Source of the DNA: Terriglobales bacterium
GTDB lineage: Bacteria > Acidobacteriota > Terriglobia > Terriglobales > Acidobacteriaceae
DNA: 64,000 bases
Direction of reading: 5' to 3'
NCBI GenBank assembly: GCA_025936825.1
Contig: JAICSO010000001.1
Span: forward strand, 1,054,001 to 1,118,000
In this document: positions 26,534 to 59,993 of the stretch, in pieces
How the letters are laid out: each line of letters begins with the position of its first letter
Numbering within the stretch: position 1 is the first letter of the stretch
Notes under the pieces: generated by a model
Seen by the model: the letters and a program-made list of their open reading frames with translations, nothing else
The model's database searches: none
Told to the model about the DNA's origin: nothing
Program-made: the position numbers and the translations under genes

Positions 26534-26554
26534 TGGCAGAGAGGGAGGGATTCG
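26534..26554 (+). other. Putative attL: copy of the tRNA-Ser 3' end
   Basis: Twenty of 21 bases match 59904-59924, which holds the encoded CCA end, acceptor 3' strand and part of the T arm of tRNA-Ser(CGA). The single difference is A for G at the fifth base. The match stops at the T loop. Both copies have the same orientation, as expected for attL and attR flanking an element inserted at the tRNA 3' end. Confidence 0.6.
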
Positions 26555-26693
26555 TTTTCGCCCTTTTCAGCCAAGTGCTGGTGATTCCTGCACATAGCCA
26601 TTTTAGTTAGTGTTTATGCGGCTTTCAAGTGCATTCTGAATTCACGCTCCTGTTTCCACAGTTTCCCTAATTCGCCTGATTTTCATGAAAAAC

Positions 26694-26712
26694 GGTATCA
26701 CTGGTATCACCC
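26694..26712 (+). repeat. Tandem GGTATCAC pair near the putative attL
   Basis: GGTATCAC, T, GGTATCACC. A closely similar pair (GTATCAGTG, TA, GGTATCACC) lies at 59854-59876 between the tRNA-Ser and the integrase remnant. Their presence near both proposed ends suggests integrase arm sites or terminal sequences of the same element. Confidence 0.4.
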
Positions 26713-26781
26713 TAAAGCTTCTGCGAGGAGCCCTGCCATGCAGTTTTCGATCATCGCTTCAGCGAAGCAACATCTTCGAAA

Positions 26782-26916
26782 ACTTTGGCCTCCCGCCCCA
26801 ATCCGGCAACGTTCTGGCGAGATTGTGGTATCGCCGTGGCTAGGCGATATGCTTGGACACTTTGGCCTCTCCCCGACCCGGCAAATTCCTGGCGAGATGG
26901 CTGGTATCGCCGTCGC
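26782..26916 (+). repeat. Two imperfect direct repeats, 77-bp period
   Basis: Unit 1 at 26782-26840 and unit 2 at 26859-26916 share ACTTTGGCCTC, CCGGCAA, TGGCGAGAT and GGTATCGCCGT in the same order. The function is unknown. It could be a repetitive extragenic element or the remnant of a repeated coding unit. Confidence 0.6.
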
Positions 26917-26981
26917 AGGGCCAGCATCCTTCCCAAGTTTGCCTCGGGGCTGCGGACGGAAGCACGATTTGCGCTAAATCA

Positions 26982-28241
26982 TCAAGCTCGAAGAAAGACT
27001 GGCAAGCGAAGACGCACGACTCGCCCATTGTCGTGTTCATGGACCGCAATCGAATCGGAATTGGTTGTGACAGAAGCGACACCAGCAAAATCGTGTGACA
27101 CTTCAATCAAGGCGATCACGTATTTCGAGGATCTACTGCTTCGTGCTGGCAGCCACTTGTACGTGGATTCCCCGAACAGCGGACCATTGGCGATCGTTTC
27201 GCGCCGCGGAATAGGAAAAGGAGTGCTGCTGAATTCGAATCCTCGGCAGAATTCGCGTCCTTTCCAAGGTACATGCTTCCGATTGTAGGATTCTTCCCAG
27301 TTCCCCACCCATGGGTACTCACTTCGATTGACCACATATAAGACCAGCAGTCGCATGCGTGGATTGGACACTGCGATGAAAGCAGTTTTCAAAGCTGGGT
27401 CCAATAGATGAGCCGTGTAGTGACCGTACTTCGAATTCTTGCTGACTCGAAGATTCAAAGAGCCATCCGTCTTTGTTGGTGCATTCGGCCACAGAAATTC
27501 GGCGTCAGGATGGAGAGCCATGTTCTTGCTAAAGGTTGAAGGGCACACTTTACTGCGGGTCGCAGGCATGTCAAAAAGAGTCACGTCAGGTTCTAAGAAC
27601 GGCGGACCAAACGTTACGTGATGATTCCATGAAATCGGTCGATCAAACGTCGCGAGGTTGGTCGCGGTTTCTTCGCAGTAAATGATCGGTTGTTCGCAGT
27701 CGAGAGAGAGTGCACGCTCCAAGCGTATCTGCGCTAGAGGTAGATCGGCGCCATAAACGAGTCTGTTTTGTGCTGACTTCTTGGGATGCCTGCGCCGCCA
27801 TTTCACAACTGGAGCCTCTCCGTGTGTGCTGTGGCCGGCAGCGATCTCCTCCCCCGACGGCGGTCCAAAGAAATCGAAGCTAATGCTGTGACCCGCTATG
27901 CCTGCGAGCAGCCTTCCTTCCGGCAGGGGACCGAAAATGCGACCGTGTGTGGAAGTTTTGTATCTTGAAGGGTCTATCGTTTTCCACTTCGGCTTCCAAA
28001 GTGGGTTAATCCCTCCAGCAGCATTCAAAACTAATTCGCAAATGTGTCCGCCACCTTCAAGAACTGCAACGTGCCCCCAGGTGCTGCTGAGCCGAAAGCC
28101 AGGCCGGCCATCCAGAATGTTCGAGTGACGAGTTACAGATGTGAACTTCTTCGTATTGTTACGCAACAGGGAGACCTCGCGAAAATATCCCGAATTCTTT
28201 ATAGCAGGCGACGCTCGCCAAGGAAAACCCTTACTGGACAC
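26982..28241 (-). CDS. Aldose-epimerase/mutarotase-like hypothetical protein
   Basis: The product has at most 419 residues. It shows no signal peptide. Blocks such as GGHICELVL, ISWNHHVTFGPPFLEPDVT and HEHDNGRV suggest a galactose-mutarotase-like beta-sandwich (aldose 1-epimerase or DUF4432-like). By eye it is less GC-rich than its neighbours, and its GTG start at 28241 is uncertain. The conserved part seems to begin around residue 40. It lies between repeat-rich DNA and a dead transporter gene, which suggests transfer or decay around it. The substrate is probably a sugar, but this is a fold-level guess. Confidence 0.6.
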   Translation of the reverse strand: MSSKGFPWRASPAIKNSGYFREVSLLRNNTKKFTSVTRHSNILDGRPGFRLSSTWGHVAVLEGGGHICELVLNAAGGINPLWKPKWKTIDPSRYKTSTHGRIFGPLPEGRLLAGIAGHSISFDFFGPPSGEEIAAGHSTHGEAPVVKWRRRHPKKSAQNRLVYGADLPLAQIRLERALSLDCEQPIIYCEETATNLATFDRPISWNHHVTFGPPFLEPDVTLFDMPATRSKVCPSTFSKNMALHPDAEFLWPNAPTKTDGSLNLRVSKNSKYGHYTAHLLDPALKTAFIAVSNPRMRLLVLYVVNRSEYPWVGNWEESYNRKHVPWKGREFCRGFEFSSTPFPIPRRETIANGPLFGESTYKWLPARSSRSSKYVIALIEVSHDFAGVASVTTNSDSIAVHEHDNGRVVRLRLPVFLRA

Positions 28242-28268
28242 GATACGCGATGAGGATAGATTCTCGTC

Positions 28269-28690
28269 TCATTTCAGAGCGAGCTCCTTTTGTAGTTCTT
28301 CGAGCGGCACGTTCTTGGTTTCGCGAACCATCGTCTTTACCCACAAGAGCTGTAGGCACATCATTCCTGCAAAGAATGAAAACGCGTAGCCCGAAGGCAG
28401 AGACGAGGCCATCTTTGGGAATAACGTCGTGAGAAGCGCGGCAAAGATTCAGTGGGTGAAGTTGCCGAGACTCTGGCCTTCGGGGCGGTGGCGATTAGGA
28501 AAGATTTCGGGAGATGAATACCCAAATCACGGCGCCCTGGCCGACAGCATGTGCCGCAATAAAGGCAACAATGCAGGCGGGAACAATCGAATAGTGCTCA
28601 CTGAAATCCCGAGATCACGACGGTATCGAAGCCAAATAGAAAACCTGCCAGTGCTGCGGTCAGCGACCAGAAGAACATGCGGAGATTCAT
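28269..28690 (-). pseudogene. Remnant of an MFS sugar porter (xylose/galactose:H+ type)
   Basis: The minus-strand translation starts MNLRMFFWSLTAALAG followed by FLFGFDTVVISG, the start of a sugar porter. It then jumps to the last membrane segments (FIAAHAVGQGAVIWVFIS, EIFPNRHRPEGQSLGNFTH) and ends TKNVPLEELQKELALK. Most of the middle is gone. A stop ends the first frame, a frameshift separates ISR from EIF, and TGA replaces the Trp after NFTH. Intact relatives are about 450 residues. It follows the GH32 gene, so a carrier was once the last gene of this sugar operon. Confidence 0.88.
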
Positions 28691-28746
28691 AGGAGGTGAT
28701 GCAACAAATAGAACGTCACACTGAACGATCCCACCAATCGCGAACA

Positions 28747-30366
28747 TCAAACCCGAAACAGCTCAGCCCCGGACGTGAAGCGGTCGGTGGAGATTGGAGC
28801 CAGGTCCCACAGAGTCACGGATCGTAAACGAGCCGTGCCACCTTTGGCAAAGAGTCCGATGCCAAGGCTCTCGGCACTTGAAGGATATACGCGGTCCGTG
28901 AGGGAAGCCCTGCCGTTCGCGAATGTCTCGATAACTGAGGCATCGAGGTAAATGCGTAGCCGCAGAGTTTCGCCGTGCTGCAACTTGATAGAGCCACCCT
29001 CCATGCCGCGACCTCGAAGCGGCGGTGCAACCTTCGTCTCAGGATCGCTGCTGGAAGCGCTTGTGTCGCAAAACAATTTCTTGGTATCGCGGTCGTAACC
29101 GATCAGCGTCTGCTCGCTGCCATCGCGAGTTGAGCGAACGCGCAGGCCGGCCTGATGTGCATCGCCAAGATCAATCTCCGCTTCGATCTCGGCGCAGTCA
29201 CTGTCGAACTCTCTGAGAAGCAAGGGCCCATTTGGCGCGATCTTCTGATCCGCAATCGTTCTCTTTGCGCGGCGCAGCACCTTCAACTCCTCTGCCGGTT
29301 CGACGCCCAGTTTGTCATCCGGACGAAGTTTCAGGAGCTTGGGAAGCGACATCACGCCTGCCCACCCCGCCGCGGCTTGCGCTTCCGTGGTGCGCTTTTC
29401 GCGGATCCAAGCCCACCAGATACGTCTATCCTTTTCGTCCTGCATTGTTTTCTGCGCGTATGCCGCCGAGCCAAAATCAATTTGACCGTCTGAATGCTGA
29501 TCGAACTTATGATTGGCATATGTCCCGGTGAGATAAGTATTGCCGCGCGCTACGAGCAAAATCGGTTTGCCGTTGAGAAGAAAGAAGTCGGGACACTCCC
29601 ACATAGACGCCCATGGGCGCGACGCATCCTGGCTCTCTGGATTAGGTTTGGCAACGGCTAAGGGGTGGAGATAGGTCCAGTTTCTGAGGTCCTTCGACGT
29701 GTAAAGCAATGCCATGCCGCCTCTGCCGACCTCGCCTGCCCCGATCACCATGTACCAGCTGTTGCCTTCTTTCCAAAGGCACGGATCGCGCCAGCCAACC
29801 ACTTTCATCCCTGCTGGAGGCGCGGCAAGGACCGGGTTCAGCGAAATCTTCGTCCACGTGATCAGATTTTCATCCCTGGGATCGGCCGCAACGGCGACCA
29901 TCTGCCGCTCAGGTACCTGTCCTTTTTTTCGCTCGGCAAACTCCGTTTCCGCAGACCACGTTACTCCGGTATAGACGAGCGTAGGTGTGCCGTTATTGAT
30001 CACAGCGGACCCCGACCAGCAACCGTTTTTGTCGGGGCCACCCGGCGTCGGTGAGAGAGCGATGCCCAGGTTCTTCCAGTGAACAAGATCACTTGAGATC
30101 GCGTGTCCCCAATATTTCGGTCCCGCGATCGAGATCACAGGAGAGTACTGGTAGAACATATGGTATTGACCTCTCAAGAAAAGCGGCCCATTGGGATCGT
30201 TCATCCAGGCGGATGGTGGCATGAGGTGAAAGCGTGGGCGATGCCGGTCGTTCGCGAGTCCTGAAGTGGTCTGAGCGTTTAACGCGGTGGATGCCAGGGC
30301 CGCCGACGTCAACGCAATGAACTCGCGTCGCGTGACAGCAAAGCGGATATCGAAGTGATTGGCCAT
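28747..30366 (-). CDS. Tat-exported GH32 beta-fructosidase (sucrose/levan/inulin type)
   Basis: Glycoside hydrolase family 32, 539 residues, splitting fructose from sucrose or fructans. The Tat leader (TRREFIALTSAALASTALNA) points to the periplasm. Catalytic signatures are complete: WMNDPNG with nucleophile Asp57, GWRDPCL with the transition-state Asp, and MWECPDFF with the acid/base Glu. The C-terminal third is the usual beta-sandwich (LRIYLDASVIETFANGRASL). I start at the ATG at 30366; the alternative TTG at 30396 would precede the leader awkwardly. It is the third gene of the sucrose phosphorylase operon, 31 bases after the MFS stop. Confidence 0.93.
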   Translation of the reverse strand: MANHFDIRFAVTRREFIALTSAALASTALNAQTTSGLANDRHRPRFHLMPPSAWMNDPNGPLFLRGQYHMFYQYSPVISIAGPKYWGHAISSDLVHWKNLGIALSPTPGGPDKNGCWSGSAVINNGTPTLVYTGVTWSAETEFAERKKGQVPERQMVAVAADPRDENLITWTKISLNPVLAAPPAGMKVVGWRDPCLWKEGNSWYMVIGAGEVGRGGMALLYTSKDLRNWTYLHPLAVAKPNPESQDASRPWASMWECPDFFLLNGKPILLVARGNTYLTGTYANHKFDQHSDGQIDFGSAAYAQKTMQDEKDRRIWWAWIREKRTTEAQAAAGWAGVMSLPKLLKLRPDDKLGVEPAEELKVLRRAKRTIADQKIAPNGPLLLREFDSDCAEIEAEIDLGDAHQAGLRVRSTRDGSEQTLIGYDRDTKKLFCDTSASSSDPETKVAPPLRGRGMEGGSIKLQHGETLRLRIYLDASVIETFANGRASLTDRVYPSSAESLGIGLFAKGGTARLRSVTLWDLAPISTDRFTSGAELFRV

Positions 30367-30397
30367 GGCGGATCCCTGTGCTGCAAACTTCAGCAAC

Positions 30398-31660
30398 TCA
30401 GTTTGCTGTGTTCACACCAACAGCAGCCTGTGAATCACCGGTGGAGTACTCCGTGACGTCGAGGCGGTGTAGAAGGTCGCGCGTCGGATTAACGATCCAG
30501 TTAAGCAAGAGGGAAATGAACAGCAGCGCCGCGAAGCCGGTGGCCAGCAGAAAGCCGTATTTTGCACCGCCAAAATGGTCGCTGATTGCTGCCATTGCCA
30601 ACGGCGCGACAACAGCCGATATGCAGGTGAAGAACAGAATTACGCCTGCCACCGCGCCGTGTTCAGGTTTCTTAAAACAACTGATCCCTTTCGAATTAAG
30701 AGTCGGATAAAGCACCGACATAAACAGGCCAGACACTGGCAATGCCAATACCGCAACTCCAATTCCGCCGACCATAGAAATTACGAAGCATGCCAGGATC
30801 GCGAAGCTGAACACGGTGACCACCGCCGCCCAGTTTAAGTGGGCCAGCATCCACGAGCCAATAAATCTTCCGGCGGCGCGGAGCACGAAGAAGATGGAGA
30901 TGGCATATGTTGCCACCCACAGCAGCGAGCCGTGATAGCCGCTTAGTAGCGTCGGCATCCATACATAGATGGCAGCCTCAACTGCGACGTAGAGAAATAT
31001 GAGTCCCGAAAAACCAAGCGCATACGGATTCTTCATCATCATCAAGGTGCGCTTGAGATCCACGGATTCCGCGGTTGTGCTCGTTTGCGGATACTGGACC
31101 AGCGTCGCGACCACGATCAGGAGAACGCAGAGGGTTCCCGCGATGACATAGAGCCACTTCCACGACGTGCCCACGGCTAGAAGACGGGCAACAATAGCCG
31201 GACCAATGATTGCGCCGACAGCGAAGAAGCCTTCGACGGTGTTCATCGTTGCCGTGTGTTCAGTCGTGGAGCGGGTGATGTCGCCGATCAGCGCGAGCGC
31301 GCCAGTCTTGAAAATGCCAATCGCAGCACCGGAAATCAGAAGCAGCAGCACGAAAAACGTGAATGCCCTGCCAACTGCGAACAAATAGGAGTTGAGCGCG
31401 AACAGCACAAGGCCGAGGATAATGGTCTTCTTGCGTCCCAATTTGTCAGCAAGATACCCGAGGAAGAAACCCGCGAAGGCAATGCCGGCCATGTCGGCGT
31501 AGTGAAAGGCGCCGGCCACGGTCATGCTGAGGTGAAATTCCTTGATGATCTCGGGAATGATGACGCCGACCGAATCGGTGGTCATCGCGAACATCATGAA
31601 CATCAGGAACGTAAGCCACTTGATCACGGTTAGGCTTCGCGCAGTTGTGGGAGCGCTCAT
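30398..31660 (-). CDS. MFS transporter in the sucrose operon
   Basis: A 420-residue, 12-segment inner-membrane carrier with the loop motif GYLADKLGRKKTIILG between segments 2 and 3. The ATG at 31660 has GGAGG 8 bases upstream and overlaps the stop of the sucrose phosphorylase gene (ATGA), so the two are translationally coupled. This placement makes sucrose, or a fructose/glucose product, the likely substrate. The carrier differs in family from the dead sugar porter at 28269-28690 and may have replaced it. Confidence 0.85.
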   Translation of the reverse strand: MSAPTTARSLTVIKWLTFLMFMMFAMTTDSVGVIIPEIIKEFHLSMTVAGAFHYADMAGIAFAGFFLGYLADKLGRKKTIILGLVLFALNSYLFAVGRAFTFFVLLLLISGAAIGIFKTGALALIGDITRSTTEHTATMNTVEGFFAVGAIIGPAIVARLLAVGTSWKWLYVIAGTLCVLLIVVATLVQYPQTSTTAESVDLKRTLMMMKNPYALGFSGLIFLYVAVEAAIYVWMPTLLSGYHGSLLWVATYAISIFFVLRAAGRFIGSWMLAHLNWAAVVTVFSFAILACFVISMVGGIGVAVLALPVSGLFMSVLYPTLNSKGISCFKKPEHGAVAGVILFFTCISAVVAPLAMAAISDHFGGAKYGFLLATGFAALLFISLLLNWIVNPTRDLLHRLDVTEYSTGDSQAAVGVNTAN

Positions 31661-33156
31661 CGCATTGCCTCCGGAGCAATGGTGTTGATTCGTGAGTCCC
31701 ATCTCACCACGTTCGAACTACCGGCGATCTCGGAATGAGTGACCGTAGCCCGGGGCTCTTTCAAATCCACGTCGAGCTTCGCCCAATGAGAGCCGTTCTT
31801 CCAGGCAATCGAGAGAGAGTCGGCGCGTGGGATTTCCACTTGTGCGTGCCCAGCAAAAGCCGCATGAGTATTCCGCAAGCGTATGAGCTCTAGAAACCTG
31901 CTCACGAGCGCTTTTTTCAGCGCGCCTTCGATTTCGGCCGGATTGTAGTAATGCCGGTTGATGTCGCGCCCCACCCGGGACTGCTTGAGTAATTCCATGT
32001 CGTTGGTGCTACCGAGCAGCCCAACATAGTAAACCTGGGGAATGCCAGGCACGAAGAACTGGATAGCGCGGGCGATGAGGTACTGGTTGTCATCGCGACC
32101 CAAGGCGTCATAGTACGTGCAGTTAACCTGATACAAGTCGAGATTGTTCGCCGCAGTACCGGTTGCCATTCGACTCTGGTCTTGGCTTTGCTCATGAATG
32201 GTCTCGACGAGGCGATCGATATCCGCCGGGGCAAGCAGGCCGGCTTCACCGCGCGGGCCAGCGCCTACGTCAATGACGCCAATACCGTCGTGAGTGTCGA
32301 GCACGGTTACGCAATTCTGCGGTCGGATGGAAAGCCAGCGCGCGAGTGCCTCGGCATTGCGCGCAAAAAGCGAATGCAGGACCAGCGGGGGAAGCGCGAA
32401 GTCATACACCCAATCCACTTGTTGCGCAATTTGAATTTGCTGCTTGTAGTAGCTGTGAATCTCAACCAGAACTTCTATGCCAAGCGCGTGTGCTTGTGCG
32501 GTAAGCTCCGCGATGAACTGGAAGGTCTCCGGAATCATGAAGCAGCTTGTTCCTGGTTTCTTGATCGCGTATCCGACGGCGTCGAGCCGGATCATGCGCA
32601 CGCCTGCGTCCCGAAAACGGCCAAGAATTGATTGCAGATACGCTTGCCCTTCCGGGTGCTGAACGTCGATGTCGATCTGCTGTGGCGTGAATGTCGTCCA
32701 AAAGAGGTGCTTGTCCCCGGAACGAAGGGTGATGTTCGTGAAGGGAAGACCCGGACGTGGACGATAAATGCGCAGGAGATCTTCCTCGCGGGCCCCGGCG
32801 GGAAATACCCGGTCGTAGGTTAGAAACAAACCGGCAAACCGTGAACTCGCCCCTTTGCTGGAATAATCTTTGAATTGGGGAGATTCGCTCGATATGTGAT
32901 TGACAATGAGATCCGCGACAATCTCACAACCTCGGCCCAGGTCGCAGACTGCGTGCCAGTCCCCCAGACGAGCATCCACTTCGGTATGCTCCACAGGGTC
33001 AAAACCCGCGTCTGCTCCGTCGATTGGCGTGAAGAAGGGAAGTAGATGAACGCCGCCGAACAATCCCGCCATCGGACCGCCCAACAGCCTCTGCAATCCT
33101 TTTAGATCACCTGCAAGGCGATCCACATAAGTGATTAGTTGGACTTGATTCTTCAA
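31657..33156 (-). CDS. Sucrose phosphorylase (GH13 subfamily 18)
   Basis: Cytoplasmic enzyme of 499 residues that splits sucrose with phosphate to glucose-1-phosphate and fructose. The catalytic triad aligns without shift to the Bifidobacterium enzyme: nucleophile Asp192 (RLDAVGY), acid/base Glu232 (VEIHSYY) and Asp290 (VLDTHDG). The subfamily loops YRPRPGLPF, FTPQQIDID and NLDLYQVNCTYYDALG, and the late DINRHYY, are also present. A sucrose-6-phosphate phosphorylase is possible but less likely given the close match. It is first in an operon with an MFS carrier and a GH32 enzyme. Its promoter at 33234-33262 carries operator half-sites also found before TonB receptor 2. Confidence 0.93.
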   Translation of the reverse strand: MKNQVQLITYVDRLAGDLKGLQRLLGGPMAGLFGGVHLLPFFTPIDGADAGFDPVEHTEVDARLGDWHAVCDLGRGCEIVADLIVNHISSESPQFKDYSSKGASSRFAGLFLTYDRVFPAGAREEDLLRIYRPRPGLPFTNITLRSGDKHLFWTTFTPQQIDIDVQHPEGQAYLQSILGRFRDAGVRMIRLDAVGYAIKKPGTSCFMIPETFQFIAELTAQAHALGIEVLVEIHSYYKQQIQIAQQVDWVYDFALPPLVLHSLFARNAEALARWLSIRPQNCVTVLDTHDGIGVIDVGAGPRGEAGLLAPADIDRLVETIHEQSQDQSRMATGTAANNLDLYQVNCTYYDALGRDDNQYLIARAIQFFVPGIPQVYYVGLLGSTNDMELLKQSRVGRDINRHYYNPAEIEGALKKALVSRFLELIRLRNTHAAFAGHAQVEIPRADSLSIAWKNGSHWAKLDVDLKEPRATVTHSEIAGSSNVVRWDSRINTIAPEAMR

Positions 33157-33233
33157 CCTTCATCCTTGGCGAGCGGAACTTGTGACGGGACAGTTTTACC
33201 GCAGCGGCTGACTCTATTAGGAATCCACAACAC

Positions 33234-33262
33234 TTGTAGAACTGCGGCTCTGAACGTGTCAA
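33234..33262 (-). promoter_or_regulatory. Promoter of the sucrose phosphorylase operon
   Basis: On the minus strand, -35 TTGACA (33257-33262), a 17-base spacer, then CTACAA (33234-33239), about 78 bases before the start codon. The same hexamers and spacing occur before TonB receptor 2 (34653-34681). Confidence 0.6.
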
Positions 33263-33295
33263 GACAATTGCCCTGAATATGCCTTGAAGTTGTCT
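33262..33295. promoter_or_regulatory. Operator half-sites in the divergent sucrose/regulator promoter
   Basis: AGACAATT (33262-33269) and the inverted partner AGTTGTCT (33288-33295) face each other. On the minus strand the outer half-site reads TAGACAACTT, identical to half of the palindrome at 34620-34642. It is the likely site of the GntR-LacI regulator encoded next to it. Confidence 0.5.
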
Positions 33296-33377
33296 ATGGC
33301 AATCATAGCCAGACCGGAGTATGCTGTCCTGCTGCGATTAGCGACAGCGTGGCCCAGCAGAGGAATCAGGAGACCGA

Positions 33378-34490
33378 GTGGCTAGCCATAAGTACCGTCA
33401 AATCCTAGAAAAGCTTCAGGACGACATCGCCTCTGGCCGATACAAGCCCGGCAAGCGCCTGCCCAGTGAAGCCGAATTGGTGCGCCGCTTCGGTGCGTCG
33501 CGCATGACCGTGTTTCGTGCCATGCACGAACTGCAGTCAATGGGACTTGTCGTGCGTCGAGTCGGCTCCGGGACGTTTGTTTCGTCGAACACCAACAGCG
33601 GCAGTCATGTCTTTGGCCTGTTAATTCCCGAGCTCGGCCAGACCGAGATTTTCGAGGCTATCTGCAAAGGCATGATGGAAGCCCAGGAAGCCATGCACCA
33701 CTCTCTGCTGTGGGGCAATGCCGTCTCTCACGAGGAGGAGAAAGAGCGCGCCGCCGAGCAGCTTTGTGAGCACTACATCGCTCAAAGGGTTTCGGGAGTC
33801 TTTTTTGCGCCCGTGGAGTTCAGCGCAAACCGTTACCAGGCAAATCACAGAATCGTCGCAGCCTTCGATCGCGCTCGCATTCCTGTGGTACTTCTCGACC
33901 GTGACCTCGAGCCCTACCCCCAACGAAGTAAATATGACCTAGTCGGAATCGACAACCGTCGCACGGGATATCTCGCCACTGAACACCTGATAAAGACGGG
34001 GGCAAAACGCATTGCGTTTTTTGCACGGCCCAACTCTGCGCCTACTGTGGACGCGCGCATTGCCGGATATCGCGAAGCCCTTCTGTCCCAAGACAGTGGC
34101 GGCGCCAAGCGGGACCTCGTGACCATTGGCGATGCCAGCGATCTCAAGTTCATCAGGTCTGTATTGAAAAAACACAATCCCGATGCGTTCGTGTGTGCGA
34201 ATGACCACACCGCCGGCAATCTCATGCACACACTGATCTCGCTCGGCCAACGCATCCCCGAAGATATTCGGATCATGGGCATTGACGATGTGAAGTATGC
34301 TCGCCTTTTGCCTGTCCCGCTGACAACTCTTCACCAGCCATGCCGCGATATCGGAAGAATGGCAATGGCCGTCATGCTAGACAGAATCGCAAATCCAGAT
34401 TTGCCGCCCCGCGACGTTCTGTTGCGATGCGAAGTCGTGATGCGCAAATCGTGCGGAACGCCCGCCAGTAAGAATGGCCACAACGCCTAA
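33378..34490 (+). CDS. GntR-LacI hybrid regulator (AraR-like)
   Basis: The product has 370 residues. Residues 5-72 are a GntR winged helix (SGRYKPGKRLPSEAELVRRF and MTVFRAMHELQSMGLVVRRV), and residues 80-355 a LacI-type periplasmic-binding-protein-like sensor (VFGLLIPELG, DAFVCANDHTAGNLMHTLIS). The architecture matches AraR-type repressors of sugar operons. The start is GTG with AGGAG six bases upstream. It stands between the sucrose phosphorylase operon and TonB receptor 2. Both have AGACAACT-type inverted sites in their promoters, so it probably represses both, with sucrose or a derivative as inducer (inference). Confidence 0.9.
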   Translation: MASHKYRQILEKLQDDIASGRYKPGKRLPSEAELVRRFGASRMTVFRAMHELQSMGLVVRRVGSGTFVSSNTNSGSHVFGLLIPELGQTEIFEAICKGMMEAQEAMHHSLLWGNAVSHEEEKERAAEQLCEHYIAQRVSGVFFAPVEFSANRYQANHRIVAAFDRARIPVVLLDRDLEPYPQRSKYDLVGIDNRRTGYLATEHLIKTGAKRIAFFARPNSAPTVDARIAGYREALLSQDSGGAKRDLVTIGDASDLKFIRSVLKKHNPDAFVCANDHTAGNLMHTLISLGQRIPEDIRIMGIDDVKYARLLPVPLTTLHQPCRDIGRMAMAVMLDRIANPDLPPRDVLLRCEVVMRKSCGTPASKNGHNA

Positions 34491-34619
34491 AACTCTCGCC
34501 TAGGCGAACCGCCAGCCTCTGCCAATTCCCGCTCCGATCGCCGCGGCAACCCTCGTGCTGCTTCGAATCAGCGAATGTTTAGAGCGCCGCTGAAAGCGAT
34601 GTTTTTTTCTCACCGGTAT

Positions 34620-34642
34620 AGACAACTTTTTAATAGTTGTCT
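34620..34642. promoter_or_regulatory. Operator palindrome upstream of TonB receptor 2
   Basis: Perfect 8-bp arms, AGACAACT and AGTTGTCT, with a 7-base TTTTAAT spacer. The half-site is shared with the sucrose phosphorylase promoter region. It lies 10 bases upstream of the -35 element. Confidence 0.65.
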
Positions 34643-34652
34643 GCAAATTGCC

Positions 34653-34681
34653 TTGACAGCTTACGAACGGGGGAGCTACAA
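34653..34681 (+). promoter_or_regulatory. Promoter of TonB receptor 2
   Basis: TTGACA (34653-34658), 17 bases, CTACAA (34676-34681). This is the same core as the sucrose phosphorylase promoter on the opposite strand at 33234-33262. Confidence 0.6.
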
Positions 34682-51150: not shown

Positions 51151-51282
51151 GAAATGGAGAATTTCAAATTGGATTTCAATCTTCGTACACGAACTTGTCA
51201 CCCACCTGCAGCGAATTCATAGGACCAGAAGTAGCTTTTACCATCACAGACCTATTTGTCTGCAAGTCCTAATCTCGCTGTT

Positions 51283-53766: not shown

Positions 53767-53820
53767 GAAGACGCTCCTCTCGGGCAATAACACGGAATCA
53801 CAGAAAGGCGAATTTGGTTG

Positions 53821-54342
53821 TCAGATGTGACTATCAAAGATCGTCCAGGCGACGGACAAGATCTTCCACTGCCCATCAATTTTGCACACCTGCCAGACCT
53901 CGAGGCCTGAATGGTGAACCTTGTCGTTGATGACGAAATCGTAATTAAATGTGACCAGCCCTAGAGGACCGTCCTGGCGAATCTCGATATTGCGAAATCT
54001 CTCTTCGAGTTTGTCCTTCGACGTAGCGAGAAGTGTCGCAAATCCGTCGAGCTGGCTGGGGCCAATCCCATCGAACTGAGCGTCATATTTGCGGGCGCTA
54101 TCAATCTCTTCCTGGGTGTTGGCGTGATGAAAGAGCACATCAGGGTTCAGCACGAGTTTCGTCAGGGCGTACCCGTCTTTACGAATGATGTCTAGGCGGA
54201 ACTCCTCCAATAGGCCGCGGATCTTCGTGAGGTCATCGGCATTGGAGTTGAATTTGGGTTCCGAATCCTGCGCCGACACTTGAAAGGCCAAGCCACACAT
54301 AAGGAGTCCTACGAATACTGCGCCCGCTCTTCTTTTGTTCAT
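53821..54342 (-). CDS. Exported SnoaL/DUF4440-like protein
   Basis: The product has 173 residues from the ATG at 54342 (AAGGAG 8 bases upstream) with a signal peptide (MNKRRAGAVFVGLLMCGLAF). The remainder looks like a small cone-shaped NTF2-like fold: EFRLDIIRKDGYAL, PDVLFHHANTQEEIDS and WQVCKIDGQWKILSVAW. DUF4440 proteins are often of unknown function; ligand binding or isomerase activity is possible. It lies between the A/B-barrel-like gene and the ADOP permease with gaps of 54-64 bases, so it is probably cotranscribed. Confidence 0.8.
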   Translation of the reverse strand: MNKRRAGAVFVGLLMCGLAFQVSAQDSEPKFNSNADDLTKIRGLLEEFRLDIIRKDGYALTKLVLNPDVLFHHANTQEEIDSARKYDAQFDGIGPSQLDGFATLLATSKDKLEERFRNIEIRQDGPLGLVTFNYDFVINDKVHHSGLEVWQVCKIDGQWKILSVAWTIFDSHI

Positions 54343-54406
54343 ATGGCGTTCTCCTTTCAGAATTTGACTTGGCGAATGTGGATCGCTCCAGCTGCGCATA
54401 ACAACG

Positions 54407-54865
54407 TCACTTAAAAACAATTTCACGAATCACTTCATTGCCCAGGAATGTTCTGATCTCATTCCGGTGTACTCTGGCCTGGTTCTGACACGCGCTGCTA
54501 CAGATAACTTTTTCGGTCACAGCTTCGAACTCGTCCTGAGCAGCTTGATCGCCGATGTCTCCGGCAAAAGCCGCCATGTCTTTAAAAGTGACCCAGAGAT
54601 ACATATTGGGCTCATTCGGGTTTGCGGATTCCCTAACGACAACCTTGTAGCCGACGATCAACCCGGCTTTCTTCGCGGCTTCCATGGTGGGCAACCATGT
54701 CGAAGTGATCCATGCCATGTAATCGTCAAAGTGCCCGTAGTTAACGTGTATAAGGCCCAGCTGGGTGACCGGACCGTACCTAAACCCGCGCTTGTCCTCC
54801 GCACTTGCATTAAGCGAAAGGGAGGAAACTGCGAGACACATGGACAAGATGACAGTCTTAGTCAT
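54407..54865 (-). CDS. Small exported protein, possible dimeric alpha/beta-barrel fold
   Basis: The product has 152 residues with a signal peptide (MTKTVILSMCLAVSSLSL). The core (LGLIHVNYGHFDDYMAWITS, then YKVVVRESANPNEPNMYLW) resembles NIPSNAP or stress-responsive A/B-barrel proteins. Two Cys near the C terminus (CSSACQNQ) could form a disulfide in the periplasm. The function is unknown. It is 30 bases after the DinB-like gene and evidently belongs to the same operon. Confidence 0.7.
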   Translation of the reverse strand: MTKTVILSMCLAVSSLSLNASAEDKRGFRYGPVTQLGLIHVNYGHFDDYMAWITSTWLPTMEAAKKAGLIVGYKVVVRESANPNEPNMYLWVTFKDMAAFAGDIGDQAAQDEFEAVTEKVICSSACQNQARVHRNEIRTFLGNEVIREIVFK

Positions 54866-54895
54866 TTCTCTTTACCTCGGTTTTTCATTGTTGTC

Positions 54896-55414
54896 CTACT
54901 TAGACCAGGGCGGAACCACGCCGTTGCTGCGCGCGTACGCGATCGACTGCCCCAGATGCTCGTGTTGATCTTCGAGAACGTGTATCACCGCGTCCTGCCT
55001 CGTCCAGTCTCTTCCGAACAATTTCACCGTAGTCTGCAGGTCGTTGTCGGAAAGTCCTGTAATTGCTTTTTGCAGATTGACGTAAGAAGTCTTTAGAGCT
55101 TCCTGCAATTTCTCCGGATCGGTAATGGGCGCGGGCTTGGCCCCCGCATTCGGCGTACCCGAAAGTACGCCGGCGAGCAGGCCGTTCTCCATAACGATCA
55201 GGTTGAAGACGTCGGCGACGGAGCGAACGCCTTGCCCGGGCTTCCAGTCGTACTTGCCCGACATCACGCGCGCGAGTCCGGTGAATTTGTCGGAAAGTGT
55301 TCCGGCGTCTTTTCCAAAGGCGGCCTGTATTCCTGCCGGCTGCGCCTGCGCCAACGGCACCATTAGAGCGAACGCAAGCGCGCATACTACATACTCAGTC
55401 AGAATCTTCTCCAT
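54896..55414 (-). CDS. Exported DinB-like protein
   Basis: The product has 172 residues. The ATG at 55414 has AGGAG 6 bases upstream and starts a signal peptide (MEKILTEYVVCALAFALMVP). The mature part is a DinB/YfiT-type four-helix bundle: GLARVMSGKYDWKPGQGVRS, FNLIVMENGLLAGVL, then the C-terminal HVLEDQHEHLGQSIAYAR, whose histidines are typical metal ligands. Most DinB proteins are cytoplasmic thiol-dependent metalloenzymes, so an exported one is uncommon outside Acidobacteria. It heads the operon running to the ADOP permease. The repeat at 55453-55520 lies 39 bases upstream of its start. Confidence 0.82.
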   Translation of the reverse strand: MEKILTEYVVCALAFALMVPLAQAQPAGIQAAFGKDAGTLSDKFTGLARVMSGKYDWKPGQGVRSVADVFNLIVMENGLLAGVLSGTPNAGAKPAPITDPEKLQEALKTSYVNLQKAITGLSDNDLQTTVKLFGRDWTRQDAVIHVLEDQHEHLGQSIAYARSNGVVPPWSK

Positions 55415-55452
55415 TTGGAACTCCTGTAGGCGATGTTCCTGCTCACGGGACA

Positions 55453-55520
55453 ATATGCTGAGAAGAACCAGTCTTGGCAGGAAAAGTGACATGCGGCGTT
55501 CCGAAGCGAGACAAGCGGTC
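55453..55520 (-). promoter_or_regulatory. LytTR-type control region, copy 1 (DinB operon)
   Basis: This 68-base block is about 85% identical to 57037-57103. On the minus strand it has two direct repeats, GACCGCTTGTC (55510-55520) and GCCGCATGTC (55488-55497), 22 bases apart, i.e. two helical turns. The spacing fits LytTR-type binding, and ACCGCTTGTC is close to the AlgR site ACCGTTCGTC. It ends 39 bases from the start codon. Confidence 0.6.
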
Positions 55521-55531
55521 AGAGTTGGCGG

Positions 55532-56572
55532 TCAAATACTGGTGCCACGGGTCCGTTCACAGGCTTGATCAGCTAGTTCGTTCATCCGGTCTCGTGCCGG
55601 CTGGAGAACTCCACGTTCGATCTGGTGTACAAGGCCTGTGATTGTGGCGTTCATATGTACCGGCACTCCGGACGCGTGGCCTAACGCGACCACATACCCG
55701 TTGATGAAGTCGACCTCAGTCTTCCGGCCCCGCTCGAAGTCCTGGAGCATCGAAGGTTTGACATCCCCATAGAAGGCAATGATTGCCTCGACCCAGGACT
55801 GATAGTGTTCCTCTGCGGCAAAACTGCTCGGCCATCCGGGCGGAATCGGGTCCACGGACAACCGTTCCAGCCGAGTGCCAATCGCAAGTGCCACGGACAA
55901 CGCTTCCTGGTACGTCTGTCGGAAAACCTTCTTGCCTGCCTCCGTTTCCATGTACTGACGCATGGTTTGCGAACAGAGCGCGCCGAGAGTTGTAACGGAG
56001 CAGTTGATCAGCAGCTTCGACCAAATGGCACCGGTGATGTTCGAAGATGTTTTGACCTCAATCGCTCGACCCAACATGCGCGCAATCCGATCGGTGCGCT
56101 CACTGACGCCACCGGCAAGTTCGCCGATTACTAGATGCCCGGCATTCTTCTGCTCGTAGACGCCGGGTTCTACCATCGTGGCGCCAAAATTTGAGGACCC
56201 TCCAAGGATTCTGTCTTCGCCTAGACGATCCGCAAGCGCCCGTGCAACGCCGCCGTTCTGTATAGGCAACATAATCCCGCCGGGCGCGAGCAGGTCCACC
56301 ACGTGGGGCGCGATTTCCAGTGCCTCCTGCGCTTTGGTGGCAAGCAGGATCAGGTTAAACTGGTCTCCCTTTCCGTAGTCCTCAACTGCGGCAACATCGA
56401 TAACGTCTGCCGTTACCTCTCCTCCGAGCCCGGACACTCGCAGACCCGATCTGCGCAATGCCTCTGCAGAATCGGTATTGCGAACCGCAAGCCGGACGGG
56501 CAATCCAGCGCGGATGGCCCGCGCGGCGATTGTTCCACCCAACGCGCCAATGCCCACTATCAGTATTTGCAT
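55532..56572 (-). CDS. Ketopantoate reductase family protein (ApbA/PanE)
   Basis: The product has 346 residues from the ATG at 56572. The N-terminal Rossmann loop reads ILIVGIGALGGTIAARAIRA, with LLATKAQEALEIAP and LPIQNGGV in the middle. The catalytic Lys is in the IWSKLLINCSVTTLGALC segment, and the C-terminal part has ERGRKTEVDFINGYVV. Real PanE makes pantoate with NADPH, but many family members reduce other 2-keto acids. It lies 44 bases after the RidA-like gene, so a role in imine/keto acid handling together with RidA is possible (inference). Confidence 0.87.
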   Translation of the reverse strand: MQILIVGIGALGGTIAARAIRAGLPVRLAVRNTDSAEALRRSGLRVSGLGGEVTADVIDVAAVEDYGKGDQFNLILLATKAQEALEIAPHVVDLLAPGGIMLPIQNGGVARALADRLGEDRILGGSSNFGATMVEPGVYEQKNAGHLVIGELAGGVSERTDRIARMLGRAIEVKTSSNITGAIWSKLLINCSVTTLGALCSQTMRQYMETEAGKKVFRQTYQEALSVALAIGTRLERLSVDPIPPGWPSSFAAEEHYQSWVEAIIAFYGDVKPSMLQDFERGRKTEVDFINGYVVALGHASGVPVHMNATITGLVHQIERGVLQPARDRMNELADQACERTRGTSI

Positions 56573-56616
56573 TTTGGCATCTCTGAGATCCCAGAATGAG
56601 GCCTCCTTGCGTCGCC

Positions 56617-56997
56617 TCAAGCCTTGACGACGAGGTCGATCTCAACGCAGGCCCCAAGCGGCAGCGCGGCCACCCCGATCGCCGTGCGGGCCGGAAAGGG
56701 CGGACCAAAATACTTTGCGTAGACGCCATTCATCGCGGCGTAGTCACTCATGTTCGTGAGAAACACGCGGGTGCACGCAACGTGATCGAAGCTCTTCCCG
56801 GCCGCCTTGAGAACCGCAGAGAGATTCTGGAAGACGCGCTCCGTCTCGGCCACAATGCCCCCCTCGACCACCTTGCCAGTCGCCGGGTCTTGGCCGACAT
56901 GACCGCTGACGTAGAGGAGACCATCGACTTCGATCGCCTGGGAAAACGGGCCGACCGGCGGCGTAAGTTCCGGAGAGGTAATCGCGATCTTGCTCAT
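56617..56997 (-). CDS. RidA family (YjgF/YER057c/UK114) protein
   Basis: The product has 126 residues, near the family norm. It has the N-terminal PPVGPFSQAI and LLYVSGHVGQDPATG blocks, then CTRVFLTNMSDYAAMN. The C-terminal ARTAIGVAALPLGACVEIDL contains the Arg that binds the carboxylate of the enamine/imine substrate in true RidA. RidA hydrolyses reactive 2-aminoacrylate-type intermediates to keto acids and ammonia. It is first in an operon with the PanE-like gene. The control region at 57037-57103 is 40 bases upstream of its start. Confidence 0.9.
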   Translation of the reverse strand: MSKIAITSPELTPPVGPFSQAIEVDGLLYVSGHVGQDPATGKVVEGGIVAETERVFQNLSAVLKAAGKSFDHVACTRVFLTNMSDYAAMNGVYAKYFGPPFPARTAIGVAALPLGACVEIDLVVKA

Positions 56998-57036
56998 AGC
57001 AAACTCCTGTGGATACTGGGTTAGTGGGTATGGAAC

Positions 57037-57103
57037 ATACGCTGCGAAGAACCAGCGTCTGCAGGAAAAGTGACATGCGGCGGCCGAAGTGAGACAAGCG
57101 GTC
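57037..57103 (-). promoter_or_regulatory. LytTR-type control region, copy 2 (RidA operon / LytS promoter)
   Basis: The direct repeats are GACCGCTTGTC (57093-57103) and GCCGCATGTC (57072-57081) on the minus strand, 21 bases apart. The block ends 40 bases from the ridA-like start, against 39 in copy 1. It also lies 66 bases upstream of the divergent LytS-like gene, so it may serve autoregulation. Confidence 0.6.
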
Positions 57104-57136
57104 TGTCCTGAGTGATTTCTTCTTCGAAGTCTCCGC

Positions 57137-57142
57137 TATAAT
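57137..57142 (+). promoter_or_regulatory. -10 element of the LytS-like gene
   Basis: A perfect TATAAT, followed by GGAGAGG at 57150-57156 and the TTG start at 57169. No good -35 element is seen at the right distance, which suggests an activator-dependent promoter. Confidence 0.5.
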
Positions 57143-57168
57143 CCGTCCCGGAGAGGTCGACACACCCA

Positions 57169-58296
57169 TTGCTCAAGGCCACACCAGGCAGGGGACGGAC
57201 GAGATGGATTTTGATCCCGTGTGCGTGGACGATTGTAGGACTGTTGTTCACGGTGCAGGAGATCGCCGTGGCGAAGGTACACGGCGGGCACGTCAGTTGG
57301 GTGTTCGTGGGTGTGATCGAACTCGTCTACTGGAATGTATGGGCGGCATTCACACCGCTTGTGATTGCTCTGGCAAAACGGTTCCCGTTGACGGGGCCGA
57401 GGTTTGCATCTCATATAGCGATCCACACAATTGCGTCGTTCCTGATGGCTCCCCTGGCATCAGTCACCGAATACTTTCTGAGCCGTGGAATTCTGGGACT
57501 TCTTTATCGCATATCCGATCCTGGTGCACCACGCCCTGTTCCGACGTTTACGGGCAGTGTTGTATCCATGAGCCTCACCGGCGTGCTTACGTACTGGTTA
57601 GTTGTGGGACTGTATCAGTCTATCCACTTTTACCAGGCCGCAATGGAGCGCCAGACTAAAGCGGCACAACTGCAGATGCAGCTCTCCCATGCCGAGCTGG
57701 AGAACCTCAAGAGCCAGTTACATCCGCACTTTTTGTTCAACAGTCTTCACACCATTGGGGTCCTGATGCAGGAAGACGTCGATGCTGCAAGCCATCTACT
57801 GGTCAGCCTCGGCGACTTGCTGCGGATAGCCCTCGAACGACGGGACAACGAGATCACCCTCGAGAGCGAACTCGAGTTCGTCGGCAAGTATCTCGAAATC
57901 GAACAGACACGCTTTCACGATCGGTTGAAAGTTCACATGGAAGTGCCACCTGACCTTCTCGGAGTCTATGTACCGAGCCTGGCCCTTCAGCCACTGGTCG
58001 AGAATGCCATCAAGCACGGCATCAGCGTCGATTCCGCCGCAGGCCGGCTGGAGATCGCTGCGCACCGTAACAATGGCAGAGTTTCGCTCCGCGTCCGCGA
58101 CGATGGCCCGGGTCCGGCACCGGGATCGCGCCTGCGATTCGGCGTCGGACTCACCAATATCCAGTTGCGCTTGAAGCAGCTGTACGGGGACAAGTCGTCG
58201 CTGGAACTCACCGGCGGCAACGGTCGAGGCTGTGAGGCCATCATCACCATTCCACTGCGGAGTTCGCATGAAGACGCGAGTCCTCATCGTCGATGA
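57169..58296 (+). CDS. LytS/YehU-type sensor histidine kinase
   Basis: The product has 375 residues with four membrane segments (about residues 14-30, 45-69, 82-100 and 128-150). The short cytoplasmic module of the His_kinase/LytS class follows. The phosphoacceptor region is QLHPHFLFNSLHTIG around His185/187, then the N box LVENAIKHG and G box DDGPGPAPGSRL. TTG is the only possible start, since a stop codon precedes it. It overlaps the response regulator gene by 29 bases, so the pair is translationally linked. The signal is unknown; the small membrane domain suggests an envelope or small-ligand cue. Confidence 0.9.
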   Translation: MLKATPGRGRTRWILIPCAWTIVGLLFTVQEIAVAKVHGGHVSWVFVGVIELVYWNVWAAFTPLVIALAKRFPLTGPRFASHIAIHTIASFLMAPLASVTEYFLSRGILGLLYRISDPGAPRPVPTFTGSVVSMSLTGVLTYWLVVGLYQSIHFYQAAMERQTKAAQLQMQLSHAELENLKSQLHPHFLFNSLHTIGVLMQEDVDAASHLLVSLGDLLRIALERRDNEITLESELEFVGKYLEIEQTRFHDRLKVHMEVPPDLLGVYVPSLALQPLVENAIKHGISVDSAAGRLEIAAHRNNGRVSLRVRDDGPGPAPGSRLRFGVGLTNIQLRLKQLYGDKSSLELTGGNGRGCEAIITIPLRSSHEDASPHRR

Positions 58297-59026
58297 CGAA
58301 CCGATCGCCCGCCGCGGTATTCGTCGCTATCTGGCCGAACACGACGGCATTGAAGTTGTAGGCGAGGCGGCGAACGGAATGAGTGCGGTGGAGCAGATCA
58401 ATGAACTTCATCCCGACATCGTTTTTCTCGATGTGCAGATGCCTGATCTGGATGGCTTTGGAGTCATCGAAAATGTCGAGCCATCGACCCACCCCGCTCC
58501 CGTTTATGTCTTCGTTACGGCTCACGATGCGCACGCCATTCGCGCATTCGAAGTGCACGCTGTTGACTATCTGTTGAAGCCGTATGATAAGGAGCGATTT
58601 GGCAAGGCCCTGGCTCACGCACTACAGGTCGTCGAACACCGTGGGACAGCAAATCGAGGTCTCGAACCACTGCTCCAAGCCCTCCGTAGTCTCCGCCCGT
58701 TCGAACGCTTTGTGGTGAAGGACAAGAAGCGGATTTTCTTTGTTCCCGTTCCCCATGTCTTGTGGATCGAAGCCACGGGAAACTATGCCTGCATACACAC
58801 CGCCAGCGACAGTCACCTGTTGCGGGACACCCTGGCACACCTGGAAGCAAAGCTGGCGCCACACCACTTCATCCGCGTGCGGAAATCGGCCATCGTGAAC
58901 GGCGCCTGCATTAGAGAGATTCGTCCGATGTTCGATGGGGTTTACGACATCGTCCTGGCAGAAGGAACGGTGGTCACGTCGAGCCGCAGATACGCTCACA
59001 AGTTGCGGGCTCTGCTGGAATCGTAG
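58268..59026 (+). CDS. LytTR-family response regulator
   Basis: The product has 252 residues from the ATG at 58268 (GCGGAG five bases upstream). Residues 1-120 are a receiver domain with phospho-acceptor Asp55 (IVFLDVQMPDLDG), acidic pocket VDDEP and the KPYDKERFG lysine. Residues about 150-250 are the LytTR DNA-binding domain (LWIEATGNYACIHT, HHFIRVRKSAIVNGACI). LytTR proteins such as AlgR and AgrA bind paired direct repeats about 21-22 bp apart. Such pairs stand upstream of two neighbouring operons (55453-55520, 57037-57103), which are the likely targets. Confidence 0.92.
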   Translation: MKTRVLIVDDEPIARRGIRRYLAEHDGIEVVGEAANGMSAVEQINELHPDIVFLDVQMPDLDGFGVIENVEPSTHPAPVYVFVTAHDAHAIRAFEVHAVDYLLKPYDKERFGKALAHALQVVEHRGTANRGLEPLLQALRSLRPFERFVVKDKKRIFFVPVPHVLWIEATGNYACIHTASDSHLLRDTLAHLEAKLAPHHFIRVRKSAIVNGACIREIRPMFDGVYDIVLAEGTVVTSSRRYAHKLRALLES

Positions 59027-59069
59027 TCTTGCCAATAGCCCGGAGGACGGGATTCGTGTGCACTTGCAG

Positions 59070-59174
59070 TCCAGCGAGATCGTTACATTTTTTCTTGGCG
59101 CAAATGCCTCATTGGCCCTGCTCGTGGGCGGCACCGGCATTATGAATATCATGCCGATCTCGGCTACCCCTTGA
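59070..59174 (+). pseudogene. Fragment of a MacB/FtsX-type permease
   Basis: The frame reads SSEIVTFFLGANASLALLVG, then GTGIMNIMPISAT, closely matching the first membrane helix of the MacB FtsX domain (LVGGIGIMNIM). It stops directly afterwards. Nothing of the rest of a permease is present. Its 3' end overlaps the integrase remnant on the other strand, marking a rearrangement junction. Confidence 0.7.
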
Positions 59175-59832
59175 ATGCCGCTTCGCAGGCTGTGAACAGG
59201 GCATCCAAATCTTCTTTTTCGTTATATCTCGGGTTCTTCCTCGACGAATCGCGGCCAGTCGTTCTTGCCCGCAAGTCCGCGAATCCTTTGTGCTTTCAAA
59301 AAGGTCATCAGGTTCTCGAATTTGTTGTAAACGGAACGTGGCGCCTGATCCTTCTCGTCGCGCAGGAACGCCGCGAACTTGAGCAAGTCTTTTCTCTCTA
59401 TCCTCATCCACGTAGATTTTCGAGCAGCATTGAGCGAAGTATCGCAGCGTGAGGTCGTATGCCGCATAAGTCTTTCTTTTGCGGCTGAGTTTTGTGTCTT
59501 CCAAGTAGTCCGAAATGGCAGCGCTCAGGAGTCGGCGTCCGTTCTTGGACTCGGTCGCGATCGCGACCCCATTGTTCCTCGCATTCAGTTCAGCTTCCTT
59601 ACGCAGACGGCGTGCAGTGGCATCAGTCTGCGTTCTTGCCGACAGACACACGCCTACGCTTTGTGCCTTCGTACCACTCCAAATAGTAGGAACCTTCCCG
59701 GTGGCGCTCAGGGATGCCGTTAACGAGAACTGTGTCAGGTGTGATTCGACCGTTTGCTGAGAGAACTACAGGGCAGTACCGAATGCCGGCATCAGTACGG
59801 ACTCGCTTAGTAACGTTGCACTGCCGATTCAT
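59164..59832 (-). pseudogene. Decayed tyrosine integrase next to tRNA-Ser
   Basis: The minus-strand pieces in three frames join into the N-terminal half of a phage-type integrase. They run from MNRQCNVTKRVRTDAGIRYC and EGSYYLEWYEGTKRRRVSVG, via DATARRLRKEAELNARNNG and YLEDTKLSRKRKTYAAYDLT, then RKDLLKFAAFLRDEKDQAPR, to NEKEDLDALFTACEAAFKG and a stop. Frameshifts lie near 59627, 59400 and 59225. The catalytic domain with the Arg/His/Tyr residues is absent. It begins 71 bases from the tRNA-Ser 3' end, the usual place for an integrase of a tRNA-targeting element. Confidence 0.88.
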
Positions 59833-59853
59833 TGGTGATCCTTCCTGATTTCT

Positions 59854-59876
59854 AGTATCAGTGTAGGTATCACCGG
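59854..59876 (+). repeat. GTATCA repeat pair between integrase remnant and tRNA-Ser
   Basis: GTATCAGTG, TA, GGTATCACC. It resembles 26694-26712 near the other proposed end of the island. Confidence 0.4.
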
Positions 59877-59903
59877 CACGTAAGTGCTAGATAACAAACG
59901 TAA

Positions 59904-59993
59904 TGGCGGAGAGGGAGGGATTCGAACCCCCGATACCCGTTAAGGTATGTCCGCTTTCGAGGCGGATCGTTTCAACCACTCACGCACCTCTCC
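59904..59993 (-). tRNA. tRNA-Ser (anticodon CGA)
   Basis: A 90-base class II tRNA with a long variable arm. The 5' strand GGAGAGG pairs with CCTCTCC, the anticodon stem-loop reads CCGCCTCGAAAGCGG with CGA in the loop, and the T arm contains GGTTCGAATCC. Discriminator G and CCA are encoded. Its 3' 21 bases recur at 26534-26554. Confidence 0.95.

Follow-up and report, generated by a model that had tools for sequence, protein, structure and literature searches.

A 64-kb stretch of DNA (the window) from the 6.54-Mb genome of a Terriglobales bacterium (Acidobacteriota) contains a tRNA-Ser(CGA) gene whose 3′ end is found a second time, about 33 kb away. Does the DNA between the two copies form an integrated genomic island, and if so, of what kind? 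We compared the window with a family set of 398 genomes and with seven relatives from its genus, the latter 65–97% complete and mostly fragmented (20–960 contigs). With high confidence, we assign positions 26534-59903 to a decayed member of an integrative island family of Terriglobia, in which the ends and the integrase are shared and the carried genes differ. The ends of this element are strongly supported; its internal history is not.

The 3′ end of tRNA-Ser(CGA) lies at both ends of the element

The initial annotation, made from the sequence alone, had proposed an attL–element–integrase–attR layout (att, attachment site), with the last 21 bases of tRNA-Ser recurring in the same orientation with one mismatch, a paired GTATCA-type repeat near both ends and a broken tyrosine integrase 71 bases from the tRNA. 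These observations held, and the layout is supported. The recurrence is confirmed by the sequence, the GTATCA pairs begin at 26695/26704 on the left and at 59855/59867 on the tRNA side, and tblastn against an intact relative verified the integrase. The layout as a whole matches that of intact relatives at tRNA-Ser genes, and its left copy lies within a conserved end module.

Positions 26534-26554 read TGGCAGAGAGGGAGGGATTCG and positions 59904-59924 read TGGCGGAGAGGGAGGGATTCG; a single base differs and the orientation is identical. Elsewhere in the window, neither strand holds a third copy at five or fewer mismatches. With A or G allowed at the variable base and all other bases exact, the 21-mer occurs at two sites in the whole genome, and its reversed control at none. 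The uniform-chance expectation of such a match in the window is ∼2 × 10−6, and among 3000 random window 21-mers two had a partner at one or fewer mismatches, both belonging to a dispersed repeat near 62.2 kb. The repeat pair is real and not due to chance; the repeat length of 4 bases returned automatically for this element merely reflects the position of the mismatch. The locus shows the hallmark of a tRNA-gene genomic island, i.e. an intact tRNA with a displaced same-orientation 3′ fragment downstream of its 3′ end. Of the tyrosine integrase between the att copies, what remains is a pseudogene that covers residues 9-226 of 390. A DNA search also showed that a short dispersed repeat at 62106-62252 has many copies in this genome.

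Table 1. Features of the island and its target gene in the 64-kb window
Feature	Position	Strand	Basis or remark
Whole element, 33,370 bp	26534..59903	.	Tail-to-tail distance
tRNA-Ser(CGA), integration target	59904..59993	-	ARAGORN; attR core formed by its last 20-21 bases
attR core, tRNA 3′ end from T-loop to CCA	59904..59924	+	One of only two copies genome-wide
attL core, displaced tRNA-Ser 3′ end copy, one mismatch	26534..26554	+	Sequence comparison
Conserved distal end module, in which 133 bp separate the tail copy from AAAAACGGTATCACTGGTATCA	26534..26709	+	DNA homology, 176 bp
Paired GTATCA direct repeats, proposed integrase arm sites, tRNA side	59855..59872	+	Sequence
Tyrosine integrase pseudogene, residues 9-226 of 390	59179..59832	-	tblastn with intact G004 integrase
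GH32 fructosidase, MFS transporter, sucrose phosphorylase (minus), GntR/LacI-type regulator (plus, 33378-34490)	28747..34490	.	Pfam
TonB-type outer-membrane receptor, alpha/beta hydrolase, two DUF34/NIF3, GDSL lipase, esterase, PfkB kinase, carboxylesterase	34748..46598	+	Pfam
Short-chain dehydrogenase, DoxX-like gene, sigma factor of SigJ/SigX4 models	47079..50320	.	Profile matches
MacB/FtsX permease	51283..53793	-	85-90% DNA identity to G001:C508
Ketopantoate-reductase-like gene, histidine kinase, LytTR response regulator	55532..59026	.	Profile matches; G001:C510 DNA

A truncated tyrosine integrase adjoins the tRNA gene

We assign the broken gene beside the tRNA to the tyrosine integrases because tblastn with intact relatives aligned it, Pfam and PHROGs having given no recognition on its longest frame; the intact integrase of G004, a member of the window's genus, matches Pfam Phage_integrase. 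Identity to the G004 protein is 78% and 65% in the best two pieces, and the remnant runs through frames -2, -3, -1 and -2 in order (three frame changes). Its start (59832, minus strand) corresponds to the start of the intact relative, and its other end stops abruptly against unrelated sequence. In an alignment of five intact relatives, the invariant residues R241, H337, R340, H363 and Y372 (G004 numbering), which we take to be catalytic, all lie beyond the end of the remnant. The window integrase is presumably inactive, every presumed catalytic residue being lost. A MacB-like fragment at ∼59027-59175, noticed by eye, did not match the window's MacB significantly and is not claimed.

Integrase matches at E ≤ 1e-80 are present in 77 of the 398 family genomes. 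The window's own genome gave none at this threshold among the 4 of 27 candidates scored, and a search of it with the 84-residue N-terminal piece (10 of 10 candidates scored) returned the remnant as the sole match and no intact copy. Plasmid and phage collections gave distant integrases only, at 26–36% identity among the matches listed, none of which spans 80% of the query.

The integrase clade sits beside serine tRNA genes

The 74 integrase loci were divided at 52% identity into a clade (≥52%; 53 loci) and a remainder (21 loci). A tRNA-Ser 3′ tail, scored at two or fewer mismatches to TGGCGGAGAGNGNGGGATTC and no more than 600 bp upstream of the integrase, was present at 48 of 51 clade loci compared with 2 of 19 more distant integrases; the survey needed at least 150 bp of upstream DNA, and two loci per group were excluded as too short. 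At the 48 clade loci with a tail, at least one GTATCA lies between tail and integrase in 42, and two in 28. Using ARAGORN, we found a tRNA within 1.5 kb at 33 of the 53 clade loci. All were tRNA-Ser (GCT 8, CGA 8, TGA 9, GGA 8) and no other tRNA was near any of the 53. In agreement, a second, overlapping set had tRNA-Ser at 21 of 30 loci (5 GCT, 6 GGA, 5 CGA, 5 TGA) and no other tRNA, and the tail was present at seven of the nine loci without a tRNA-Ser gene.

An integrase tree was built from 25 labelled integrases and one outgroup; 27 of the 33 labelled loci entered, shorter or more partial ones being omitted, and two were removed for stops. The tree required 13 anticodon changes compared with a shuffled mean of 15.4, a value as low arising in 17 of 200 shuffles, so clustering by anticodon is not clear. 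Since four isoacceptors are used and their anticodons are not clearly clustered, the clade appears to target the 3′ end that serine tRNAs share rather than any single isoacceptor. The window element has this arrangement too, with the remnant of a clade integrase at its tRNA-Ser end and GTATCA repeats as proposed arm sites.

A conserved module marks the distal end

The left tail copy opens a module that terminates in GTATCACTGGTATCA. A DNA search of 26131-29000 within the genus found it at 78% identity in G004:C10 (window positions 26534-26713) and at 77% at a second place in the window's own genome, G000:C44 (window positions 26544-26709). The alignment, read by eye, showed homology from the tRNA tail inward up to GGTATCACTGGTATCA, with unrelated sequence outside. 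The terminal repeat AAAAACGGTATCACTGGTATCA, at two or fewer mismatches, was matched at 43 places, distributed over 35 of the 398 family genomes (reversed control, one hit seen). Thirty of these places were taken as module loci, including the two from which the pattern was defined; in 24 of the 30 the tail starts 145–156 bp upstream of the terminal repeat (five or fewer mismatches), 19 of them at two or fewer. In the window, this distance is ∼154 bp. The module on G000:C44 (27991-28156; loci L089/L114) is a second one in this genome, has a degraded tRNA-Ser tail and lies 0.7 kb from the contig end. It probably marks another island of the same family.

The conserved module also bears on whether the two tails might be a chance repeat, or an unrelated tRNA fragment, around ordinary chromosomal DNA. 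Such an origin would be in keeping with the uniform composition of the region and the lack of an empty site among those examined (see below), but is highly improbable: the pair is unique in 6.5 Mb, an integrase remnant of the right clade is in place, and a left copy that opens a conserved end module contradicts chance.

Two loci, L204 and L225, have two tRNA-Ser tails upstream of a single integrase, 2.1 and 2.3 kb apart, and are probably stacked islands. Stacked elements thus seem to exist, and several integrases abut a tail where no tRNA gene was found. The window element could on this model be a collapsed tandem array, its left end and its integrase remnant coming from two islands at one tRNA-Ser whose inner ends were deleted; the break of the remnant against unrelated sequence would fit. 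However, the window holds only two tails and one module, with no internal end left to show a tandem, and we consider this origin unlikely.

Complete sister elements share ends and integrase

The island reading is supported by complete relatives. In at least five genomes, a single contig carries both the integrase and the module (G050, 26.6 kb; G046, 19.8 kb; G091, 7.1 kb; G254, 32.5 kb; G243, 9.8 kb). Perfect direct repeats of 20–28 bp bound all five, and both repeats of each contain the attR consensus, which has two variable bases. No tRNA gene was found at the integrase-side tail of G243. By blastp, which also took in the tRNA-side flank of G003 (the contig ends there), the integrase is common to 5/5 sisters and a resolvase to G046, G091 and G243; otherwise there are a few weak or pairwise matches. 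The cargo includes cytochrome oxidase subunits and UbiA in G050, a methylase, Vsr, RHS and a DnaG-type zinc finger in G046, and OLD-like, AAA, kinase and ECF sigma proteins in G254. PADLOC, run on eight proteins (six from G046/G254 and two from the window), gave a methyltransferase, Vsr and weak GajA matches.

In the mechanism that we propose, the att core of an excised circle would resemble the terminal ∼20 bases common to tRNA-Ser genes. The element itself encodes, immediately inside its tRNA-side end, the tyrosine integrase that would recombine this core with the chromosomal tRNA-Ser 3′ end. Integration would rebuild the tRNA on one side, while the 3′ fragment that it displaced would come to lie at the opposite end of the element, and the paired GTATCA repeats at both ends may serve as integrase arm-binding sites. 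After insertion in the window, the integrase would have been frameshifted and cut before its catalytic domain. Given the frameshifts, the loss of this domain and the single mismatch between the att copies, the island is presumably fixed and immobile. In the IMG/VR sequence L265 (integrase 72% identical; reverse complement, ∼4615), the module, the 20-base core and the integrase are adjacent, as in an excised circle or a tandem. GTAGCA replaces GTATCA on both sides of its core, and this one case suggests that the two arm-repeat sets change together.

We scanned 26 island proteins against Pfam, covering small open reading frames (ORFs) in part, and found no relaxase or conjugation gene, as would mark an integrative and conjugative element, and no head, terminase or packaging gene, as would mark a prophage or satellite. 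Likewise, no relaxase or virion protein was among 29 scanned sister cargo proteins (of 96 non-integrase ORFs). Two short IMG/VR fragments, L266 and L267, encode integrases at 51–56% identity adjoining major head protein and head maturation protease genes; L266 also has a small terminase subunit and an upstream tRNA-Ser-like tail with one mismatch, and L267 a neck-type protein. These relatives would fit a degraded prophage or phage satellite that lost its virion genes. As neither the island proteins nor the scanned sister proteins include a phage structural gene, and the integrase is the sole gene found in all five sisters, such an ancestry of the window element is quite improbable.

Phage-helped movement of islands of this family is nevertheless possible. 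Tentatively, and with considerable doubt, we suggest that one integrase lineage reading the common tRNA-Ser 3′ end may spread minimal islands (integrase, two GTATCA-type arm pairs and a ∼176-bp module) through Terriglobia, packaged by ancestral helper phages. The exchangeable cargo would comprise genes for sugar/ester use, cytochrome oxidase, DNA methylation and repair, and kinase/sigma regulators.

The cargo is probably composite

The cargo of the window element consists mainly of a sugar/ester-use cluster and regulators (Table 1), and was probably acquired in more than one step. The sucrose phosphorylase matches NCBIfam TIGR03852 at 445 bits (cut-off 334), and the top NCBIfam match of the PfkB kinase is a fructokinase, below cut-off. 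Relatives of the GH32 protein at E ≤ 1e-120 occur in 3 of the 398 family genomes, including its own, and in no other genus member. In G078, from another genus, the TonB receptor, hydrolase, two NIF3-like proteins, GDSL lipase, esterase, PfkB, carboxylesterase and GH32 are encoded on one strand at 65–78% protein identity and in the window order except for GH32, with a second carboxylesterase copy at 42%. The 44 kb read there contains no tRNA, and the transporter, sucrose phosphorylase and regulator are unmatched. The cluster looks like a coherent unit, and may handle esterified sucrose-type sugars, since it combines esterases, GH32, an above-cut-off sucrose phosphorylase and a fructokinase-like PfkB kinase. 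The sigma factor is presumably of the ECF41 type, as first annotated. The MacB/FtsX permease has a paralogue outside the island, 51314-53719 and G000:C132:10811-13215 being 87% identical in DNA.

Both flanks are conserved in the genus: 6.5–26.1 kb on the left matches all seven relatives over at least 1.2 kb each, and 60–64 kb on the right has matches in 7/7. Between them, matches to 28.7–46.7 kb were short, at most 353 bp (75% identity), and G002 had none. In G001, 51.3–54.0 kb matches contig C508 at 85–94% and 56.0–59.0 kb (56043-59035) matches C510 at 87–92%, compared with 66–78% for the left flank. This discordance between right-hand cargo and left flank points to horizontal transfer.

The initial annotation had regarded the sucrose/ester locus, the sigma-factor genes and the LytTR regulon as one transferred package. 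This part is not established, as parts of 51.3–59.0 kb match G001 without tRNA-Ser nearby and the TonB/esterase cluster recurs in another genus. We lean slightly towards a single island by its ends whose contents were built by later insertions or homologous exchange. The G001 match ends at 59035, 9 bases past the LytTR stop codon, and 28.7–46.7 kb, nearly missing in G001, is for the most part found again as a colinear cluster in G078. However, the two contigs that match in G001 measure only 4.1 and 12.7 kb, so that their wider context is out of view. On C510 (locus L090), a few hundred bases past the match end at 8533, a tRNA-3′-end-like stretch, GGTTCGAGTCCC...GCCA, was seen by eye where ARAGORN was silent; a different island could have left it there as a displaced piece of a tRNA gene.

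Comparison with relatives at the insertion site

Several results weigh against the island reading. Composition had been suggested as a check, and neither GC content nor 4-mer distances set 26.5–59.9 kb apart from the flanks, i.e. there is no compositional signal for an island. The empty site that the initial annotation envisaged, with the Gfo/Idh gene of the left flank directly beside tRNA-Ser and no insert, has no case in G001, G002, G003 or G006; the 4.5–14.4 kb beside Gfo/Idh in each of these holds no tRNA, and no protein match is shared among the four. The G001 stretches with the right-hand cargo matches also contain no tRNA. The tRNA-Ser tail is absent at 3 of the 51 clade loci, one with N's upstream, and at 6 of the 30 module loci. 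The whole 33 kb was seen in no other genome. Because the genus relatives are incomplete and fragmented, and at most 37 candidates per genome were scored in the DNA comparisons of the left flank, 28.7–46.7 kb and the right part, absence of genes or DNA from them is soft evidence.

Finally, the tRNA-Ser(CGA) sites of eleven relatives have other genes next to them, with no empty site among those examined and synteny too divergent. For ORFs starting in the first 9 kb, with the top three matches taken for each, none of those listed beyond the tRNA matches the window's left-flank genes. One G011 ORF weakly matches the island MacB, and G008, G016 and G022 have a common gene of ∼1190 amino acids there, which we take to be metH. 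A wider tblastn of the window ORFs gave weak left-flank matches (25–31%) in G022 and G018. A deaminase gene, presumably TadA, closely neighbours tRNA-Ser(CGA) in 20 of 30 loci, counting the window's own.

Relation to known elements

Acidobacteria are abundant in soils. In the accessible parts of earlier reports, their mobile DNA has so far been described in general terms, the subjects being prophages and integrases as well as candidate islands with tRNA genes (PMC5900883, PMC3174227). The window element shares with these reports the phylum, the integrases and the candidate islands with tRNA genes; in contrast, the tRNA-Ser family, its att site and its end module are features of the window family that those parts do not describe. 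Islands that sit in a tRNA gene and are flanked by its displaced fragment are already known and catalogued (Islander, PMC4383910). As far as the consulted sections of that work describe them, they have in common with the window element an intact tRNA, a same-orientation downstream fragment, an internal integrase, a size within the 2–200 kb filter and a T-side att. Unlike them, the window integrase is a pseudogene, its clade uses four serine isoacceptors via one 20-base end, and the family has a conserved distal module and paired GTATCA repeats.

Helper-dependent elements have been discussed under the name hitchers, and the satellite families that have been proposed include tycheposons (PMC11389934, in part). 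By description only, from sections of two papers (PMC10872708, PMC11389934), tycheposons share tRNA anchoring, a tyrosine recombinase and metabolic cargo with the window family, which in contrast belongs to a different phylum and uses one target tRNA family. Compared with the phage satellites and temperate phages outlined in PMC11389934 (in part), the window family has distant integrase relatives that adjoin head genes, and a tRNA-Ser-like tail accompanies one of them, but there are no packaging genes among the scanned proteins of the window and five sisters.

Among the entries listed, searches of titles and abstract openings, preprints excluded, found no description of a Terriglobia tRNA-Ser island family, which is not proof of unpublished status. 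Within this literature, the family is apparently new and the kind, a tRNA-gene island, is already known. Its signature of tRNA-Ser tail, integrase clade and end repeat ∼154 bp from the tail is searchable and could serve to delimit islands in fragmented genomes, including dead ones without an intact integrase or compositional bias. The clade also offers a test case of an integrase that would treat serine isoacceptors as a single target.

Outside the element, a ∼70-bp repeat at 22535-22605 recurs at 93–96% identity on four further contigs of the same genome and at 92% in G002.

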